DNA of 64,000 bases from Duganella dendranthematis (GTDB lineage Bacteria > Pseudomonadota > Gammaproteobacteria > Burkholderiales > Burkholderiaceae_D). The stretch is from contig NZ_CP051684.1 in NCBI RefSeq assembly GCF_012849375.1, forward strand, positions 2,728,001 to 2,792,000. The letters are read 5' to 3'. This document shows positions 16,678 to 24,482 of the stretch, in pieces. Position 1 is the first letter of the stretch; every line of letters starts with the position of its first letter. The notes below the pieces were generated by a model. It worked only from the letters and a program-made list of their open reading frames with translations, did not search any database and was not told where the DNA came from. The translations under genes and the position numbers were made by a program.

Positions 16678-16998
16678 GTGTGGACGATCTCCGAGTTCTA
16701 TGGACGGCAGCTCCTGCTGCTGCTCGTGCTATCCCCCGTGCTGGAGGAGGTGGTGGTGCGCGCGGGCTTGCAGGAGTGGTTGATGCGGCGCGCGCCGCAG
16801 GCAGTGGCGCCGCCGGTGCTGGTGTCGGCGGCGACCTTCGGCCTGCTGCACCTGCGTGCCGGCTGGCTGCATGCGCTGGCGGTGATCGTGCCCGGGCTGG
16901 TGCTGGCGCTGCTGTACCAGCGAACCCGCAGCTGGCGCTGGTGCGCCGTCGCCCACAGTGCCATGAACGCTTTTGCCATTTCAGTCTGCGGTCTATAA
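16678..16998 (+). CDS. mrtJ: JDVT-CTERM system glutamic-type intramembrane protease (MrtJ-like)
   Basis: 106 residues from a GTG at 16678; an in-frame TGA at 16669 leaves no room for an earlier start. It is a compact CPBP/Abi-type membrane protease with the three family motifs: E23-E24-V-V-V-R28, F54-G-L-L-H58, and H93-S-A-M-N97. Three to four hydrophobic helices make up nearly all of it. Such proteases process C-terminal sorting anchors. The next gene, 18 bp on, ends in a JDVT-CTERM tail, the expected single dedicated substrate. The protein is short for the CPBP family, so the first helix may be reduced. Confidence 0.82.
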   Translation: MWTISEFYGRQLLLLLVLSPVLEEVVVRAGLQEWLMRRAPQAVAPPVLVSAATFGLLHLRAGWLHALAVIVPGLVLALLYQRTRSWRWCAVAHSAMNAFAISVCGL

Positions 16999-17016
16999 CT
17001 TCAACTGGAGAGTGGT

Positions 17017-19140
17017 ATGAATCGATTGATAGCGCGGGTGGCGTCGGCCGTCCTGCTGTTTGGCCTTGTAGGGCAGGCGGCGCAGGCAGCGGACGCCTTG
17101 AACGGCAAGAGCCTGTACCTGAATGGGCCAGTAAGCGGCGGCGCCACCTGCGCTTCCTGCCATGGCCCCACGCCTGCCAATAACGTCAACGGCATTCTCG
17201 CTGCGGCCAACCAGCCGTCGGTGATCTCCAATGCGTTCGCCGCCAATCTGGGCGGCATGGGTAGTCTGTTCAACGGCAAATTCTCGGCGGCGGAACTTGC
17301 CGACCTGGCGGCGTTCATCGGTAACCCGAATGTGACGGCGGCGCCGGCTGCTTCGCTGGCGCCGACAACGCTGACCTTCAGCGGCGCCAATATCGGCCAG
17401 GCCAGCGCGCCGTTGTCGGCCACGCTGACCAATAGCGGCAACGCCGCGCTAAATATCGGCACCATTTCCATCGGCGGCGCGGCGGCAGGCGATTTCGCAC
17501 TGGGTGGCGGCAGCTGCGCCAATGGCGCGTCGATCGCGGCGGGCGCAAACTGCACCGTGCAGGCGACCTTCACGCCAACGGCGGCCGGCGCGCGCGCAGC
17601 CACGCTGATCATCACCCATAACGCCACCGGCGGCAGCAGCACCGTGTCGCTGAACGGCACCGGCAATGCGACACCACAGGCGACCATCGGACTGTCGGCT
17701 AGCAGCGTCGATTTCGGCAAGCTGCTGACCGGCATCCCGTCGGCAGTGTCGAGCATCACTGTTAACAACAGCGGCCAGGCGGCGTTGAACTTCAGCGCCA
17801 TCAGCGTCAGCGGCGCCAGTGCATCCATCATCACGCGTGCCGGTACTTGCGCAGTGGGCACGTCGGTAGCAGCGGGTAGCAGCTGCACGGTGACCGTGCA
17901 GGCCGCGCCGACCAGTGCAGGCGCGATTGCCGCCAGCCTGACGCTGGCGTCCAATGCCTCGAATGGCGGCGGCACGGTGACGGTCAGCTTGACCGGCACC
18001 GCCGCAGCACCTGCACCGGCGTTGAGCGCCACGCCATCCGCCGTGGCTTTCGGCTCGCAGACCATCGGCGCGGCGGCTGCTACGCAAACGATCACGCTGG
18101 CCAACACCGGCAATGTGGCACTGAGCATCGGTAGCGTCGGCGTGACCGGTTCCACCGCTGTGAAGCTGAGCGGCAGCACTTGCGGCACGACGCTGGCAGT
18201 CGGCGCGAGTTGCGCCGCCACCGTAAGCTTTACGCCGACCACGGAAGGCGCAGTGACCGCCGCGCTGGCAGTAGCATCGAACGCACCGGCGCTGCAAGTC
18301 GGCATCACCGGCACCGGCACCACACAAGCGACCGCAAAGCCTGCGCTGTCGGAAACCGGTCCGATTGCCTTCGCAGACACGCAAGTCGGCAGCAGCGCAG
18401 CTGACCACACCACCACGCTGGGCAATAGCGGCAACGCCGCGCTGAAGATCGCCACGCTGACGCTGGGCGGCACTAATCCGGGCGACTTCGTGGTCGGCGG
18501 CACTTGCGCCGCCAATGTATCGGTCAGCTCCGGCGCCACTTGCACCATCACCACCGCCTTCAAGCCGACTGCGGCCGGCGCCCGCAGCGCTGACCTGCTG
18601 CTGGTGACTGACAGCGGTGCACAATTACACCTGACGCTGAACGGCAATGGTGTCGCAGTAGTGGTGACCACGCCGTCGCTGGGCATCAGTCCACAAAGCT
18701 TTGACTTTGGTTCGGTCGTCATCGGCGGCACCGCCCCAACGCGCCGATTCACGCTGACCAATAGCGGTGCTGCCGCCGTCACGCTGTCCGGCGCAACCTT
18801 CAGCGGTCCGTTCGCTGCGGTGGCGGACAGCACCGGCTGCACCGCCTTCCCGGTCACCTTGCAGCCTGGCGCCTCGTGCGACCTGGTGGTGAGCTACACG
18901 CCGACCAACGCCGGTGCCAGCAACGGCAGCGTGGCCATCCAGTCTGGCAGCACCACCTGGAATATCGCGTTGAGCGGCCAAGGCGCTGCGTCGACGCCGA
19001 ATGCGGCGCCGTCCAATCACGGTGGTGGCGGTTGCTCCGCTTCGCAGGACGTGACCGATCCAACGCTGGTCGCGCTGCTGGTGCTGTCGCTGGTCGTGAT
19101 CGGCTGGCGTCGTCGCAGCCGCAATGGAGGTGCCAAATGA
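17017..19140 (+). CDS. JDVT-CTERM sorted surface protein: cytochrome c-like head plus five choice-of-anchor-D repeats
   Basis: 707 residues. Signal peptide to about A-A-Q-A-A (residue 25). A haem c-binding motif C45-A-S-C48-H49 lies in a short cytochrome c-like domain (to about residue 105). Five Ig-like choice-of-anchor-D (ASPM/SPD-2/Hydin type) repeats follow at about 112-216, 217-330, 331-433, 434-543 and 544-654, each with exactly two cysteines. A G/P/N-rich linker leads to G-G-G-G-C673-S-A-S-Q-D-V-T-D-P-T-L, a hydrophobic helix and R-R-R-S-R: the JDVT-CTERM sorting tail. MrtJ is encoded just upstream. I infer an extracytoplasmic, membrane-tethered electron-transfer or scaffold protein. 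GGAGAG precedes the ATG. Confidence 0.85.
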   Translation: MNRLIARVASAVLLFGLVGQAAQAADALNGKSLYLNGPVSGGATCASCHGPTPANNVNGILAAANQPSVISNAFAANLGGMGSLFNGKFSAAELADLAAFIGNPNVTAAPAASLAPTTLTFSGANIGQASAPLSATLTNSGNAALNIGTISIGGAAAGDFALGGGSCANGASIAAGANCTVQATFTPTAAGARAATLIITHNATGGSSTVSLNGTGNATPQATIGLSASSVDFGKLLTGIPSAVSSITVNNSGQAALNFSAISVSGASASIITRAGTCAVGTSVAAGSSCTVTVQAAPTSAGAIAASLTLASNASNGGGTVTVSLTGTAAAPAPALSATPSAVAFGSQTIGAAAATQTITLANTGNVALSIGSVGVTGSTAVKLSGSTCGTTLAVGASCAATVSFTPTTEGAVTAALAVASNAPALQVGITGTGTTQATAKPALSETGPIAFADTQVGSSAADHTTTLGNSGNAALKIATLTLGGTNPGDFVVGGTCAANVSVSSGATCTITTAFKPTAAGARSADLLLVTDSGAQLHLTLNGNGVAVVVTTPSLGISPQSFDFGSVVIGGTAPTRRFTLTNSGAAAVTLSGATFSGPFAAVADSTGCTAFPVTLQPGASCDLVVSYTPTNAGASNGSVAIQSGSTTWNIALSGQGAASTPNAAPSNHGGGGCSASQDVTDPTLVALLVLSLVVIGWRRRSRNGGAK

Positions 19141-19625
19141 AACTGAAGATCATGATGCTGGCCGCCTTGCTGGCCGCGTCCTCGGCCCAGGCGCTGGACA
19201 AGGGCGCCCCGGCGCCGCAGTTCGACCTGCCTGGCCTGGATGGCGCGGTCAAGCTGGCCAAGCTACAGGGCAAAGTGGTGTACGTGGACTTCTGGGCCTC
19301 GTGGTGCGGCCCATGCCGCCAGTCGTTCCCATGGATGAACGACATGCAGGCCAAGTACGGCGCCAAGGGCTTGCAGATCGTCGGCGTCAACGTCGACGCC
19401 AAGAGCGACGACGCGCGCCAGTTCCTGACCGCCATGCCGGCGCGCTTTGCCATCGCTTTCGATCCGCAGGGCGCGACGCCGCGCAGCTACGGCATCAAAG
19501 GCATGCCGAGCAGCGTGCTGATAGGCCCGGACGGCAAGGTGCTGCTGGAGCATTCCGGCTTCCGCGAGGCCGACCGCGCCGAACTGGAAAGCAAAATCCA
19601 ATCCGCGCTGGGAGGCGTCAAATGA
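19137..19625 (+). CDS. TlpA-family thioredoxin-like disulfide reductase
   Basis: 162 residues from the ATG at 19137, which overlaps the stop of the JDVT gene (ATGA) and follows GGAGG. Signal peptide MKLKIMMLAALLAASSAQA, then a redoxin domain: A-P-Q-F-D-L-P-G-L, F-W-A-S-W-C57-G-P-C60-R-Q-S-F-P-W-M-N and the cis-Pro G-M-P-S-S-V. It is a periplasmic thiol-disulfide oxidoreductase of the TlpA/ResA type, which commonly reduces cytochrome c apoprotein or other client cysteines. Its likely electron source is DsbD, encoded last in the operon; its likely client is the cysteine-rich JDVT protein. Confidence 0.93.
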   Translation: MKLKIMMLAALLAASSAQALDKGAPAPQFDLPGLDGAVKLAKLQGKVVYVDFWASWCGPCRQSFPWMNDMQAKYGAKGLQIVGVNVDAKSDDARQFLTAMPARFAIAFDPQGATPRSYGIKGMPSSVLIGPDGKVLLEHSGFREADRAELESKIQSALGGVK

Positions 19626-19837
19626 AAATCGCACTGGCTTTGGCAGCATTGGCTGTGTTGGGCGGCTGCGCCTCGATCGGCAATGTGCAGCCGTGGGAGA
19701 AGGGCACGCTGGCCCGCAGCGAGATGACCTTCAAGGACGGCAGCCTGTTCAACCGCTACGACACCCATATCTACACCAGCCGCGAAGCCTCGTCCGGCGG
19801 CGCGGGTGTGGGTGGCGGTGGTTGCGGCTGTAATTAA
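19622..19837 (+). CDS. DUF4266 lipoprotein
   Basis: 71 residues, overlapping the tlpA-like stop by 4 bp. A lipobox (V-L-G-G-C-A) at residues 13-18 marks it as a lipoprotein of about 55 mature residues. The V-Q-P-W-E-K-G-T-L-A-R block, the H-I-Y-T-S-R-E-A-S segment and the terminal G-G-G-G-C-G-C-N are what I associate with DUF4266, a family found beside DUF3570 and ApbE. Two cysteines at the extreme C-terminus could bind a metal or carry a disulfide. Function unknown. Confidence 0.88.
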   Translation: MKIALALAALAVLGGCASIGNVQPWEKGTLARSEMTFKDGSLFNRYDTHIYTSREASSGGAGVGGGGCGCN

Positions 19838-19846
19838 GGACGACCC

Positions 19847-20977
19847 ATGACGATCAACAAAGAGAGCGGCATGGCCGTATCCATCCTGTCGGCGGCATTG
19901 ATGCTGCCGGGCGTGCAGGCGCACGCCGAGGCGCCGCCGACCAATGGCGTCATCAGCGTCGGCTACCTGGATTATCAGGACAGCCAGTCGGGCCTGGACC
20001 GCATCCGCGTGCATGCGCCATCGGTGTCGATCATGACGCCGGTGGCGGGCGTGTGGAGCGTCAGCGGCACGCTGGTGAAGGATGACGTGTCGGGCGCTTC
20101 GCCGCGCTATCACACGGCGGTTTCCGGCGCCTCGCGCATGAGCGATGACCGCAAGGCCGGCGATATGGCGCTGACCCGCTATCTGGAGCGCGGCAGCGTG
20201 ACGGTGGGCGCGGCGTATTCGACCGAGCATGATTATGTGTCGCGCGCGTTGTCGCTGCAGGGCAGTTACGAGAGCGAAGACCGCAACACCACCTGGAGCG
20301 CCGGCATCGGTCATTCCGATGACAAGATCGATCCGGTCAACCACATCGTCACCAATGAGCGCAAGCGCACCACCAACTTCCTGCTGGGCGTGACACAGGT
20401 GCTGACGGCGAACGATGTGGCGCAGCTGACGCTCGGCTACGACGATGGCAGCGGCTACTTCTCCGATCCGTACAAGGCGTTCGACAACCGCCCGCGCAGC
20501 CGCTCGGAGACCACGCTGCTGGCGCGCTGGAACCACCACATCGCCGCCACCGACGGCACCACCCGGCTGAGCTACCGCTACTACCGCGACAGCTTCGGCA
20601 TACGTGGCCATACGCTCGGCGCCGAGTACGTGCAGCCGCTGTCGGATGGCTGGACGCTGACGCCAGAGGTGCGCCTGTACACGCAGAGCGCCGCCAGCTT
20701 CTATTACGACCCGGTGTACGACAGTAAGCTAGGGGCGCCGTTCCCGCCGGGGTACAACGGCACCGGCTATATGTCGGCGGACCAGCGCCTGTCCGGCTTC
20801 GGCGCGGTCACGCTGGGGCTCAAGGCCAGCAAGCAGATTGACAAGCTCTGGTCGGTCGACGCCAAGGTCTCGGCCTACCAGCAGCGCGGCAGCTGGCGCT
20901 TGTTCCACCAGGGTAGTCCGGGACTGGATGCGTTCCGCGCGCAGACCGTGCAGATCGCGATTAACCGGCAGTGGTAG
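19847..20977 (+). CDS. DUF3570 domain protein (predicted outer membrane beta-barrel)
   Basis: 376 residues with a signal peptide (cleavage near A-H-A-E, residue 27). The body alternates short amphipathic strands rich in Y/S/R, e.g. Y-L-E-R-G-S-V-T-V-G-A-A-Y and T-L-G-A-E-Y-V-Q-P-L, and ends V-Q-I-A-I-N-R-Q-W with an aromatic C-terminus, consistent with an outer membrane barrel. Near the N-terminus are two V-S-G-A-S strings: D79-D-V-S-G-A-S85-P and T90-A-V-S-G-A-S96. These resemble the D-x-x-S-G-A-T/S acceptor site of ApbE flavinylation, and apbE is the next gene. The family's function is unknown; flavin attachment here is inferred. Confidence 0.85.
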   Translation: MTINKESGMAVSILSAALMLPGVQAHAEAPPTNGVISVGYLDYQDSQSGLDRIRVHAPSVSIMTPVAGVWSVSGTLVKDDVSGASPRYHTAVSGASRMSDDRKAGDMALTRYLERGSVTVGAAYSTEHDYVSRALSLQGSYESEDRNTTWSAGIGHSDDKIDPVNHIVTNERKRTTNFLLGVTQVLTANDVAQLTLGYDDGSGYFSDPYKAFDNRPRSRSETTLLARWNHHIAATDGTTRLSYRYYRDSFGIRGHTLGAEYVQPLSDGWTLTPEVRLYTQSAASFYYDPVYDSKLGAPFPPGYNGTGYMSADQRLSGFGAVTLGLKASKQIDKLWSVDAKVSAYQQRGSWRLFHQGSPGLDAFRAQTVQIAINRQW

Positions 20978-20979
20978 AC

Positions 20980-21879
20980 ATGGTCGACGCGATCCACCGC
21001 ATTCTGTTCGACGCCATGGGCAGCCGCTGCGAGATCCGTCTGGCGGCGGAAGATGGCGACAGCGCCGAGCGGCTGATGCATCAGGCGGTCGATGAAGTGC
21101 GGCGCATCGAGCATAAATATTCGCGCTACCGGCCGGACAGCATTGTCTCGCGCATCAATGCGGAAGCCGGCCGTAAGGCGGTGGCGGTGGATCACGAGAC
21201 GGCCGAGTTGTTCAGCTACGCCGCTGCGCTGTTCAGCGCTAGTGGCGGGCTATTCGACATCACTTCCGGCGTGCTGCGCAAGGCATGGGATTTTCGCCAG
21301 CCGCGCGTGCCGTCGGCGGCGGTGCTGGAACCTTTGCTGGCGCTGGTCGGGTGGCATCAGGTGGAGTGCGGCGTGCTCGAAGTCTACCTGCGGCTGGCCG
21401 GCATGGAGATCGATTTCGGCGGATTCGGCAAGGAGTATGCGGCCGACCGCGCGGCGACCTTGCTGATGCAAGCCGGCGTGCGGCATGGCTACGTGAACCT
21501 GGGTGGCGATATGCGTTTTATCGGGCCGCGCATGGATGGCAGGCCTTGGTCCATCGGCATCCAGGACCCGCGCGAGGCGGAGGGCGTGCTGGCCACAATC
21601 AACGTCAGCGAAGGTGCGCTGGCGACCAGCGGCGATTACGAGCGGTTTTTTGAACTGGATGGGCAGCGCTATTGCCACATTCTCGATCCGCGCGATGGCA
21701 TGCCGGTGCGGTACTGGCGCTCGGTCAGCGTATTGGCGCCGGTGGCGGTGGCGGCGGGCAGCTGTTCCACCATCGCCATGCTGAAGCAGCGCGATGGTCT
21801 GGATTTTCTCAATGCGTCCGACATGGCCTATCTGGCAGTCGATGACGAAGGGCAGATGTTGTATAGGGATCTGATATGA
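20980..21879 (+). CDS. apbE: FAD:protein FMN transferase ApbE
   Basis: 299 residues from the ATG at 20980; a GTG at 20971 overlapping the DUF3570 stop would add M-V-D. ApbE moves FMN from FAD onto Thr/Ser of extracytoplasmic proteins. Motifs: M-G-S-R-C-E-I near the start, Y-S-R-Y-R-P-D-S, G-G-L-F-D-I-T-S-G-V-L, the I-D-F-G-G-F-G-K-E-Y-A-A-D flavin-pocket block, and L-A-T-S-G-D-Y-E-R-F-F with H-I-L-D-P-R-D-G-M-P. No cleavable signal or lipobox is obvious, unlike many ApbE proteins, so either export is atypical or it acts before its client is exported. It is coupled to dsbD by an ATGA overlap. Confidence 0.95.
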   Translation: MVDAIHRILFDAMGSRCEIRLAAEDGDSAERLMHQAVDEVRRIEHKYSRYRPDSIVSRINAEAGRKAVAVDHETAELFSYAAALFSASGGLFDITSGVLRKAWDFRQPRVPSAAVLEPLLALVGWHQVECGVLEVYLRLAGMEIDFGGFGKEYAADRAATLLMQAGVRHGYVNLGGDMRFIGPRMDGRPWSIGIQDPREAEGVLATINVSEGALATSGDYERFFELDGQRYCHILDPRDGMPVRYWRSVSVLAPVAVAAGSCSTIAMLKQRDGLDFLNASDMAYLAVDDEGQMLYRDLI

Positions 21880-23708
21880 ATAAGTGGATGAAGGCCTTCA
21901 TGGCATTGGTGTTGGTGCTGTTCAGCGCCTGGTCGCGCGCTGGGGATTTTCTGGAGCCTGAACAGGCGTTCCAGTTGCAGGGGGAGTTGGTCGATGCGCA
22001 TACGGTGCGGCTGACGTGGGTGATCGCGCCCGAGTATCACCTGTATCGCGACCGCTTGAGCTTTGACGGCGGCGTGGGCGTGCCAGTGCTGCCGGCTGGC
22101 TTGCGCAAGTTCGATACCAATTTCAATAAGGAGATGGAGACTTACCAGAACAAGCTGGTGGTCGATCTGCCGGTGACGGGTAGTGCGCCATTTACGCTGC
22201 AAGTCGGCTATCAGGGCTGCGCGGATGCGGGCTTGTGCTACTCGCCGGCGTCGCAGAGCTTTCATGTAGATCCGGCTGCGCCGGGCAAGCTGAAGACGGT
22301 TGCTGACGCGGCAGTGTCGCCGCCGGCCGCCGCGCAGACCATCGCGCAGACCACCGCAACCACGGCCGCCGCCGCCAACGTCACGCCGCCAGCCGCGCCG
22401 CACGAGGACGACAGCTCGCTGGCCCAGCGTACGCTGCAAAGCGGCAGCGTATGGCGCATCGGCCTGGCCTTCCTGGCCTTCGGCCTGCTGCTGTCGTTCA
22501 CGCCGTGCGTGCTGCCGATGGTGCCGATCCTGTCGTCGATCATCGTCGGCGAAGGCGCGGTCTCGCGCGGCCGGGGATTTACACTGGCGCTGGCGTATTC
22601 GCTCGGCATGGCGCTCATCTACACCTCGCTCGGCGTGGCGGCCGGCCTGGCTGGCGAAGGCCTGGCCGGCGCGCTGCAAAAGCCATGGGTGCTACTGACT
22701 TTTGGCGCGCTGCTGGTGCTGCTCGCGCTGTCGATGTTCGACGTCTACCAGTTACAACTGCCGAGCAGCCTGCAAAGCCGCCTGAATGAAAAGAGCAACG
22801 GCATGAGCGGCGGCCGTTTCGCTGGCGTATTCGTGATGGGCGCCTTGTCGGCACTGATCGTCGGCCCATGCGTGGCCGGTCCCCTGGCCGGTGCGCTGCT
22901 CTACATCAGTCAGACGCGCAACGTCTGGACCGGTGGCTGGGCGCTGTTCTCGATGGCGGCCGGCATGAGCGTGCCGCTGCTGCTGACCGGCGTTTCGGCC
23001 GGCAGTCTGCTGCCGCGCGCCGGCGCATGGATGAACGGCGTGAAGAAAGTCTTCGGCCTGCTGCTGATCGCGGTCGCCATCTGGATGGTGTCGCCGGTGT
23101 TCAGCGTGACCGTCAACATGGCCATGTGGGGCTTGTACTCCTTGCTGTGCGCCGTATTCTTGCACGTATTCGAACCATTGCAAAAAGGCGCCGAACTGCG
23201 CGCCTACGTCGGCAAGACATTGGGCCTGGCCTTTCTGCTGGTTGGCCTGTTTGAGCTGACCGGCGCCGCCAGCGCCGGCCGTGATGTGCTGCAACCACTC
23301 GGTCACCTGAGCATCGCCCGCGCCGACAAACCGGCGGCGGGCGAGGGTGGCGAGGTGCACTTCAGCCGCATCAAGACCAGCGCCGAACTGGATCAGGTGC
23401 TGGCCGGCAGCAGCACGCCGGTGATGCTGGACTTCTACGCCGACTGGTGCGTGTCCTGCAAGGAGATGGAGCGCTTCACCTTCTCCAGGCCGGAGGTGAT
23501 GGGCAAGCTGAAACAGGTGAAGCTGATCCAGGTCGACGTCACCGCCAACAACGCCGACGACAAGGCGCTGATGAAGCGCTTCGGTCTGTTCGGCCCACCG
23601 GGCATCATCCTGTTCAAGGGTGGCAAGGAAGTGCCGGACAGCCGCGTGATCGGCTTCCTGGCCGCCGAGCAGTTCGTCCAGCACCTGGCGCGGCATATCG
23701 ATTCCTGA
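21876..23708 (+). CDS. dsbD: Thiol:disulfide interchange protein DsbD
   Basis: 610 residues. It carries electrons from cytoplasmic thioredoxin across the inner membrane to periplasmic thiol proteins. All three redox modules are intact: the N-terminal domain with C115 and C121 (G-Y-Q-G-C-A-D-A-G-L-C-Y), the eight-helix membrane domain with C211 (F-T-P-C-V-L-P) and C332 (V-G-P-C-V-A-G-P), and the C-terminal thioredoxin domain with C525-V-S-C528. An Ala/Thr/Pro linker separates the first two modules. Its place at the end of this operon points to TlpA and the JDVT protein as downstream partners. Confidence 0.96.
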   Translation: MNKWMKAFMALVLVLFSAWSRAGDFLEPEQAFQLQGELVDAHTVRLTWVIAPEYHLYRDRLSFDGGVGVPVLPAGLRKFDTNFNKEMETYQNKLVVDLPVTGSAPFTLQVGYQGCADAGLCYSPASQSFHVDPAAPGKLKTVADAAVSPPAAAQTIAQTTATTAAAANVTPPAAPHEDDSSLAQRTLQSGSVWRIGLAFLAFGLLLSFTPCVLPMVPILSSIIVGEGAVSRGRGFTLALAYSLGMALIYTSLGVAAGLAGEGLAGALQKPWVLLTFGALLVLLALSMFDVYQLQLPSSLQSRLNEKSNGMSGGRFAGVFVMGALSALIVGPCVAGPLAGALLYISQTRNVWTGGWALFSMAAGMSVPLLLTGVSAGSLLPRAGAWMNGVKKVFGLLLIAVAIWMVSPVFSVTVNMAMWGLYSLLCAVFLHVFEPLQKGAELRAYVGKTLGLAFLLVGLFELTGAASAGRDVLQPLGHLSIARADKPAAGEGGEVHFSRIKTSAELDQVLAGSSTPVMLDFYADWCVSCKEMERFTFSRPEVMGKLKQVKLIQVDVTANNADDKALMKRFGLFGPPGIILFKGGKEVPDSRVIGFLAAEQFVQHLARHIDS

Positions 23709-23729: not shown

Positions 23730-24482
23730 ATGAAACCGCTCGTATTCCTCACCTTGTGCGCCGTGATGGCGCCACTCTATGCGCAGGACGATGCTGTCCT
23801 GCCGTACCGCCCATCGGTGTCCACGCCGGCGCAGTTGCCGACGCCCGGCCAGCTGGAATTTGAAACCGGCTTCCTGAGCGCCAAGTCCAGCGACAGCCGG
23901 CGTGACAGCCTGCCGTACACTTTCAAGCTGGCGTTCAACGAACAATGGGGCGTGCTGATTGAGGGAGAGTCCTTCGTCTCGTCGCGGGAAGACAGCAGCC
24001 CGCGCCAGCGCGGCTTCGGCGACACCACGTTTGTACTAAAGCGCGCCTTCATCATCGATGATGCCACCGCATTCGGCCTGGAGCTGGGGGCCAAGGCGCC
24101 GACAGCGAAGGACACCATCGGCAGCGGCAAGAGCGACTACAGTATCAACGGCATCTTCAGCCGTGACATGGGCCCTGTCCACATGGACGTCAACCTGAAC
24201 GCCACGCGCCTCGGCGCCTATGACGCCGGCACCGGCCGCACGCAGGTCGGCTGGGCCAGCGCCTTCTCCACGCCGATCTCCGACAAATGGCAGGCCATCG
24301 GCGAGCTGTCCGGCACCCATCGCGAAAACACGCTGAACACCGCGCAGCTGCTGGTGGCCGCATCGTACAGCCCAAGCAAGCGGCTGGTGTTCGACTTTGG
24401 CGTGGCGCGCGGACTGACGTCCGCCTCGCAGGACTGGTCGCTGTTCGGCGGCGTGACGCTGCCGCTGGCTAAACTCTGGTGA
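23730..24482 (+). CDS. Outer-membrane transporter-like protein (MetA-pathway phenol degradation type)
   Basis: 250 residues with signal peptide MKPLVFLTLCAVMAPLYA. The mature part has alternating strand patterns (F-E-T-G-F-L-S-A-K, L-P-Y-T-F-K-L-A-F, G-F-G-D-T-T-F-V-L-K-R), resembling the barrel family annotated as transporter or phenol MetA degradation protein. The family is broad and no substrate can be assigned. A TAGAAT 7 nt before the ATG and the lack of a Shine-Dalgarno sequence suggest its own, possibly leaderless, transcript despite the 21-bp gap from dsbD. Its stop abuts the convergent Lrp-family gene. Confidence 0.65.
   Translation: MKPLVFLTLCAVMAPLYAQDDAVLPYRPSVSTPAQLPTPGQLEFETGFLSAKSSDSRRDSLPYTFKLAFNEQWGVLIEGESFVSSREDSSPRQRGFGDTTFVLKRAFIIDDATAFGLELGAKAPTAKDTIGSGKSDYSINGIFSRDMGPVHMDVNLNATRLGAYDAGTGRTQVGWASAFSTPISDKWQAIGELSGTHRENTLNTAQLLVAASYSPSKRLVFDFGVARGLTSASQDWSLFGGVTLPLAKLW

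Follow-up and report, generated by a model that had tools for sequence, protein, structure and literature searches.

A JDVT-CTERM sorting pair and a flavinylation redox cluster in one operon of Duganella dendranthematis: a candidate thiol-flavin-haem relay

A 64,000-nucleotide stretch of the Duganella dendranthematis genome (assembly GCF_012849375.1, contig NZ_CP051684.1, positions 2,728,001 to 2,792,000; hereafter the window) contains, at positions 16678–23708, an operon in which the protease MrtJ and a protein with a JDVT-CTERM sorting tail are followed by five genes of thiol and flavin redox chemistry. We propose that the operon encodes a trans-envelope relay running from thiols through flavin to haem, together with the machinery that would place the last carrier, and give this proposal an even chance of being right. 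The gene set, its linkage, the haem motif, the flavin mononucleotide (FMN) attachment motifs, the barrel, the gene fusion and the missing ApbE signal peptide, on which it is built, are read from sequences or from structure models. The two halves are known separately; their union is real, but bound to a lineage.

The seven genes are co-directional, with steps of +18, −4, −4, +9, −7 and −4 base pairs (bp) between neighbours. An earlier note on this DNA had described this gene order and packing, with gaps of at most 18 bp, and both are confirmed by the coordinates of the open reading frames and by family searches. The features are as follows.

16678..16998, + strand: mrtJ, glutamic intramembrane (CPBP) protease of 106 amino acids; residues 12–102 match positions 1–97 of the 98 of profile NF033192
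17017..19140, + strand: JDVT-CTERM substrate, 707 amino acids, with signal peptide, c-type haem domain, five immunoglobulin (Ig)-like (choice_anch_D) domains and JDVT tail
17149..17163, + strand: CASCH haem-attachment motif (residues 45–49) in the amino-terminal cytochrome-like domain
17350..18987, + strand: five Ig-like domains (residues 112–657), five stretches matching NF012200 (choice_anch_D)
19021..19140, + strand: JDVT-CTERM tail, with GGGGC motif, transmembrane helix (682–701 in the model) and arginine cluster
19137..19625, + strand: TlpA/ResA-like thioredoxin with signal-like amino-terminus and WCGPC motif
19622..19837, + strand: small DUF4266 lipoprotein (PF14086, 78.3 bits, cut-off 27) with carboxy-terminal CxC
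19847..20977, + strand: DUF3570 protein of the flavinylation substrate family (PF12094, 210.8 bits, cut-off 25), a predicted 16-strand outer-membrane beta-barrel
20090..20134, + strand: two SGAS flavinylation motifs (DUF3570 residues 82–85 and 93–96), from sequence and alignment
20971..21879, + strand: apbE, FAD:protein FMN transferase (PF02424, 264.2 bits, cut-off 25.6), no signal peptide visible
21876..23708, + strand: dsbD, inner-membrane thiol electron importer (NF001419, 554.6 bits, cut-off 330; PF11412, PF02683 and a thioredoxin domain)

Linkage of the two halves and the JDVT-TlpA fusions

Scanning genome contigs with aligned MrtJ relatives returned 50 loci, a set biased towards the kin of the window. 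In 45 of them MrtJ, the JDVT protein, TlpA, DUF4266, DUF3570 and DsbD occur together, with ApbE in place in 39 (loci L133–L135 were left out of the 45). All but two of these records belong to Oxalobacteraceae (43 of 45), the others being a Burkholderiales metagenome-assembled genome (L071) and Ideonella (L096). The five loci without the redox core are L086, L087, L097, L098 and L065, in which the contig ends inside the JDVT gene. The gene after dsbD (23730–24482), considered as an eighth member of the operon, was rejected, being present in 5 of the 50 loci; its product resembles the outer-membrane channel family PF13557, with a score under the cut-off.

Of the 145 Oxalobacteraceae genomes in a family sample, 11 have JDVT, at a single site each, and 27 have DUF4266; eight genomes have both (P(8 or more) = 6e-5, kinship ignored), and all eight pairs lie less than 650 nucleotides (nt) apart. 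Within the genus of the window, four of eight genomes have both and four have neither. Among the 399 genomes of an order sample, MrtJ scores over the cut-off in 16, DUF4266 is present in 44 and both in four (one JDVT site under the cut-off, G026:C48, was left out). Of the 369 genomes of a class sample, 46 have JDVT. The nearest pair of JDVT and DUF4266 on one contig in the class sample is about 228 kilobases apart (G819, coordinates by eye), many of these genomes being in many contigs. In these samples the sorting pair and the redox core behave as separable modules that came together in this lineage, for the most part in one clade; a universal single module was rejected on this basis. The earlier note had taken the two halves for one; this holds within the clade, where 45 of 50 loci, eight of eight family pairs and the fusions described below speak for it, and fails as a general rule. 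The co-occurrence check that it suggested, now run, finds the halves almost always apart in the order and class samples, so the unlinked pattern that it had named as a refutation is the one seen outside the clade.

In 11 loci JDVT and TlpA form one reading frame (nine of the 45, L134, and genome G264 as L101/L233); Janthinobacterium psychrotolerans is among the species with the fused form. The fused chain continues from the JDVT tail through the arginine cluster and a second hydrophobic stretch into TlpA, leaving the sorting tail internal. On a quick tree of TlpA, DUF4266 and DUF3570, with long branches and an unsure placement of G264, the fusion amounts to two changes, i.e. two origins; the presence of JDVT changes four times. 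The arginine cluster would here double as the cytoplasmic end of the tail and the start of the export signal of TlpA. Of the signs that the two halves act jointly, the fusion is the strongest, and an internal sorting signal becomes likely with it. One locus that falls within the JDVT clade of the tree, L136 (G327), has a haem protein kept ahead of TlpA; MrtJ and a JDVT tail were not seen there.

Carriers of the redox core

The five redox genes, with ApbE, DUF3570, DUF4266, a thioredoxin-like protein and DsbD in one cluster, form the DsbD-type flavinylation cluster described in section 12 of a 2021 eLife paper (PMC8238504), which also presents flavinylation of another DUF3570 protein as demonstrated and proposes DsbD as the donor. 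The thioredoxin-like protein matches Redoxin/AhpC-TSA best and is of the ResA/DsbE/TlpA kind; PF13899, the thioredoxin-like family named in that paper, matches it with an E-value of 0.0063, under the cut-off. Its WCGPC motif is found in all 45 operons, as is the carboxy-terminal CxC of DUF4266, the strict lipobox pattern of the latter being present in 37. DsbD accompanies all 45 JDVT operons and the fetched stretch of one of 14 JDVT-free canonical cores; the Oxalobacteraceae form thus encodes every step from the inner membrane to the cytochrome.

The DUF3570 protein has a signal-like amino-terminus, and its model is a barrel of 16 strands that VIA-align matches to OmpG, CymA, BamA and other barrels; the aligned end is tryptophan or phenylalanine in 44 of 45 proteins. 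A sequence comparison with the PDB yielded no real match (best E-value 0.62). At least two [ST]GA[ST] motifs occur in the DUF3570 proteins of all 45 operons, and the model places the two SGAS motifs of the window protein at, and within, the loop that joins strands 3 and 4. The model thus predicts a barrel in the outer membrane whose two flavinylation motifs meet at a single loop, which we believe to be new.

The ApbE of the window has 15 residues ahead of its MGS motif, without a hydrophobic stretch, and neither signal peptide nor lipobox. In the clusters, 9–35 residues precede MGS, and no signal peptide is seen in any of the 58 ApbE proteins scored. Signal peptides were judged by eye and by hydropathy; the count is of proteins over 250 bits, includes L133 and L135, which duplicate L069 and L074, and leaves out five from divergent clusters and start candidates more than 40 nt inside DUF3570. 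Attachment of FMN outside the cytoplasm, as the earlier note had it, does not fit such an enzyme. Six operons lack ApbE, and in five of these cases the genome encodes a close ApbE of this kind at another place.

The sorting pair, the haem protein and its counterparts

MrtJ scores 101.5 bits against NF033192 (curated cut-off 75), and its catalytic motifs are E23-E24-x3-R28, H58 and H93-x3-N97; EE-x3-R and H-x3-N are kept in 50 of 50 relatives. As the frame is open for 108 codons, the protease is 106 amino acids long and has little beyond the 98-position core of the profile. The tail of the JDVT protein (NF033191, 53.4 bits, cut-off 27) contains GGGGC, a transmembrane helix and a WRRR arginine cluster, and the sequence GGGGCSASQDVTDPT is found in it; the protease motifs, the CxxCH and the tail named in the earlier note are thus all present. 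Adjacency suggests that MrtJ acts on the JDVT-CTERM protein, and the genome has a single JDVT-CTERM site, as expected from the one-substrate system that the note had described. Elsewhere there are up to seven sites per genome (order and class samples). In other Burkholderiales (L099–L129), up to five sites per genome are seen, often distant from MrtJ, so the one-substrate pairing is not general.

Behind their signal peptide, the linked JDVT proteins begin with a domain containing CxxCH and a GGMG methionine. In an alignment of 46 of these domains (L096, with CX4CH, left out), the two cysteines and the histidine of the haem motif are invariant, and the methionine occupies the same column in 45 and is one residue off in the other. 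A haem motif is present in all 45 core-linked JDVT proteins (44 CxxCH and the CX4CH of L096), and the linked protein of G264 has CYQCH. The conserved CxxCH and methionine would suit a class I c-type cytochrome; the Pfam cut-off is passed by relatives from L139, L145 and L153, not by the window protein, the haem domain of which is also weakly modelled. Each of the five Ig domains behind the haem domain has a cysteine pair that is invariant in 24 aligned proteins.

JDVT proteins away from the core look diverse in the sampled set. CX2-4CH was found in none of 33 from the order and family samples and in two of 40 from the class sample, i.e. in two of 73 overall; the 40 were chosen from roughly 80 class sites, mostly the best-scoring, and four of them are cut at the amino-terminal end. 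The idea that JDVT proteins are cytochromes in general, raised by the first 50 loci, was rejected on these counts. A profile of the linked haem domain matched none of the 73, nor the proteins of L086, L087, L097 and L098. DUF3570 is found elsewhere in two of the genomes of these four loci and absent from the other two, and it was sought without result in three family genomes with an unlinked MrtJ-JDVT pair (G412, G418 and G501). The c-type haem motif of the linked proteins appears to be a new observation, as do the haem proteins beside JDVT-free cores (below), the JDVT-TlpA fusions and the lack of a signal peptide in ApbE. A gammaproteobacterial genome, G819, has two unlinked JDVT proteins (L194 and L222) with five and three CxxCH motifs.

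Haem proteins also accompany redox cores that have no JDVT gene. Twenty such DUF4266 loci were fetched, comprising 14 cores with canonical DUF3570, five divergent ones and the rearranged L151; bare CxxCH motifs in short wrong frames were discarded by eye. Beside 10 of the 14 canonical cores haem proteins are present, some with the linked domain: its profile matches proteins at L139, L145, L153, L154 and L155, and weakly at L136 (E-value 0.0033). The haem gene is downstream in L139 and divergent in L145, while the L155 protein has the linked haem domain and Ig domains but ends in DUF5648 instead of a JDVT tail. In L137, L143, L147 and L149, a different CxxCH protein is encoded just upstream of the core. 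Each of the five divergent cores has a multi-CxxCH protein of 1019–1219 amino acids on the same strand; no multi-CxxCH or c-haem protein was found in the fetched stretch of L151. The latter (G016) has two DUF4266-DUF3570 pairs in opposite directions, plus an ApbE and a piece of another.

In the stretches searched around 20 gammaproteobacterial DUF4266 loci, a c-haem-like protein is encoded on the same strand in 13. Ten of these proteins (L238–L244, L246, L248 and L250) have 882–1035 amino acids and at least two motifs, and in eight of these ten loci DUF3570 lacks the flavinylation motif, possibly representing a further variant of the module, one without flavin. The core is thus commonly partnered by a c-type cytochrome, and one lineage appears to anchor this cytochrome by means of JDVT tail and MrtJ.

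The proposed relay, alternatives and known systems

In the relay that we propose, DsbD would take electrons from cytoplasmic thioredoxin and hand them to the TlpA-like thioredoxin, which would reduce the CxC of the DUF4266 lipoprotein; from there they would reach the DUF3570 barrel in the outer membrane, bearing up to two covalent FMNs. The cytoplasmic ApbE would load FMN onto DUF3570 before its export or folding. The last carrier would be the c-type haem of the JDVT protein, extended on its stalk of Ig domains. MrtJ would cut the tail of the JDVT protein, probably after a cysteine that carries lipid, freeing the cytochrome from the inner membrane for movement outwards, likely by type II secretion; in an Oxalobacteraceae subclade and G264 it would split the fused JDVT-TlpA polypeptide. 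The type II secretin GspD scores over the cut-off in all 27 genomes examined (25 locus genomes, G000 and G264), so the proposed exit exists, although GspD may be widespread among bacteria of this sort in any case. At usual potentials, the passage of electrons from thiols via flavin to haem is downhill; we infer the order and direction of electron flow, the lipidation, the surface location and the final acceptor. The complex of the earlier note and the surface position of its cytochrome-like protein are equally presumed.

Several observations weigh against this relay. The window protein scores 20.0 against PF13442 in its CxxCH region, below the cut-off of 27, the model of its haem domain is weak (predicted local distance difference test 29–54 in the block), and a domain with one haem does not readily suggest a terminal reductase. 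In L086, L087, L097 and L098, where MrtJ and JDVT have no core nearby, the JDVT proteins have a different CxxCH domain, and no accepted c-haem protein is found near the canonical JDVT-free cores L138, L140, L144 and L148. DUF4266 occurs without JDVT in 19 of its 27 family genomes; among the 16 order genomes with MrtJ, JDVT stands beside redox genes only in that of the window and in G264; and of the 45 class genomes with JDVT besides that of the window, 24 have DUF4266, in none of them beside JDVT. The 45 loci being mostly one clade, the linkage rests on few events.

The same carriers could serve maturation of the JDVT protein, with TlpA and DsbD as a CcmG-like or isomerase pair that keeps CxxCH reduced so that haem can be attached and sorts the cysteines of the Ig domains, DUF3570 being a separate matter. 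The ResA/DsbE/TlpA kind of the thioredoxin, the invariant Ig cysteine pairs, the preference of DsbD for JDVT operons and the fusion, which places a reductant on its client, would all agree with this; yet TlpA stays with DUF4266 and DUF3570 where there is no JDVT protein (L136–L155), and four of the canonical cores there lack a c-haem protein nearby. We hold this explanation to be rather unlikely, if the most serious of the three considered here. Reduction of surface iron or copper for assimilation by the same carriers is less probable still: 25 DUF3570 clusters are reported to contain a VIT1 ferrous iron transporter (eLife 2021, PMC8238504), but this operon contains no metal transporter, and the five neighbour genes tested recur in just 5 to 16 of the 50 loci. 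Least probable to us is a chance neighbourhood of the sorting pair and the redox module, co-inherited in one lineage without joint work. The separation of the halves in the bulk of the order and class samples and the small number of independent origins are what it would predict, but it leaves the two separate JDVT-TlpA fusions, the restriction of the haem domain to linked proteins among the JDVT proteins searched, and the all-or-none pattern in the genus to coincidence.

The relay resembles conduits of the MtrCAB and PioAB type, in which an outer-membrane barrel with a multihaem cytochrome inside feeds a surface cytochrome. In both, a carrier in or through the barrel would feed a cytochrome at the surface, here as proposed from sequence and model; the barrel of the window would differ in bearing covalent flavin itself and in being fed by thiols. 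Compared with the DsbD-type cluster of PMC8238504, the operon adds a sorting protease, a JDVT protein and a cytochrome, none of which appears in section 12 of that paper, and its ApbE is without a signal peptide. The words "CTERM", "exosortase" and "barrel" are absent from the main text of the paper, where "outer membrane" appears a single time, in connection with TonB receptors. In the literature searched, DUF4266 and DUF3570 are named by this paper alone, and JDVT-CTERM by the mBio paper cited below. We found no description of the JDVT-redox union in the literature searched, the supplements of the eLife paper lying outside it and perhaps listing such loci unremarked.

The MrtJ/JDVT-CTERM pair is presented in an mBio 2025 paper (PMC11980579) that retells an earlier in silico study, with the same two-gene neighbourhood of protease and single target; here the target is a c-haem protein within a redox operon, and its tail can be internal. 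The same source describes the myxosortase MrtX, of 239 amino acids with seven transmembrane helices and dozens of targets, which shares with MrtJ the protease family, a cysteine-containing tripartite tail (MYXO-CTERM) and a proposed type II secretion to the surface, whereas MrtJ of the window has 106 amino acids and one target. An ApbE without signal peptide is also known from Klebsiella pneumoniae, as outlined in a JBC 2025 review (PMC12052999); that enzyme modifies a soluble, intracellular fumarate reductase, while the target of the window ApbE is exported. We regard it as doubtful that the operon represents a new class of conduit, in which a barrel loaded with FMN in the cytoplasm would connect periplasmic thiols to a sortase-displayed cytochrome, together with a polyprotein whose mid-chain sorting signal would let one MrtJ cut part the cytochrome from its thiol partner.

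The host is a soil bacterium, and its operon appears to encode a surface haem protein with its own sorting enzyme and sulfur and flavin electron carriers; a chain of thiol and flavin carriers that spans the envelope from inner to outer membrane would be an unusual exit route for electrons. The relay would give two poorly understood systems a shared and testable job: DUF3570 flavoproteins would gain a likely electron acceptor, and a JDVT-sorted protein a function. If true, the multihaem routes known across the outer membrane would be joined by a flavin-based one, which would raise the matter of how a flavinylated chain gets exported. With one enzyme and one substrate, this small operon of a culturable Duganella would also suit the study of cysteine-type carboxy-terminal sorting.

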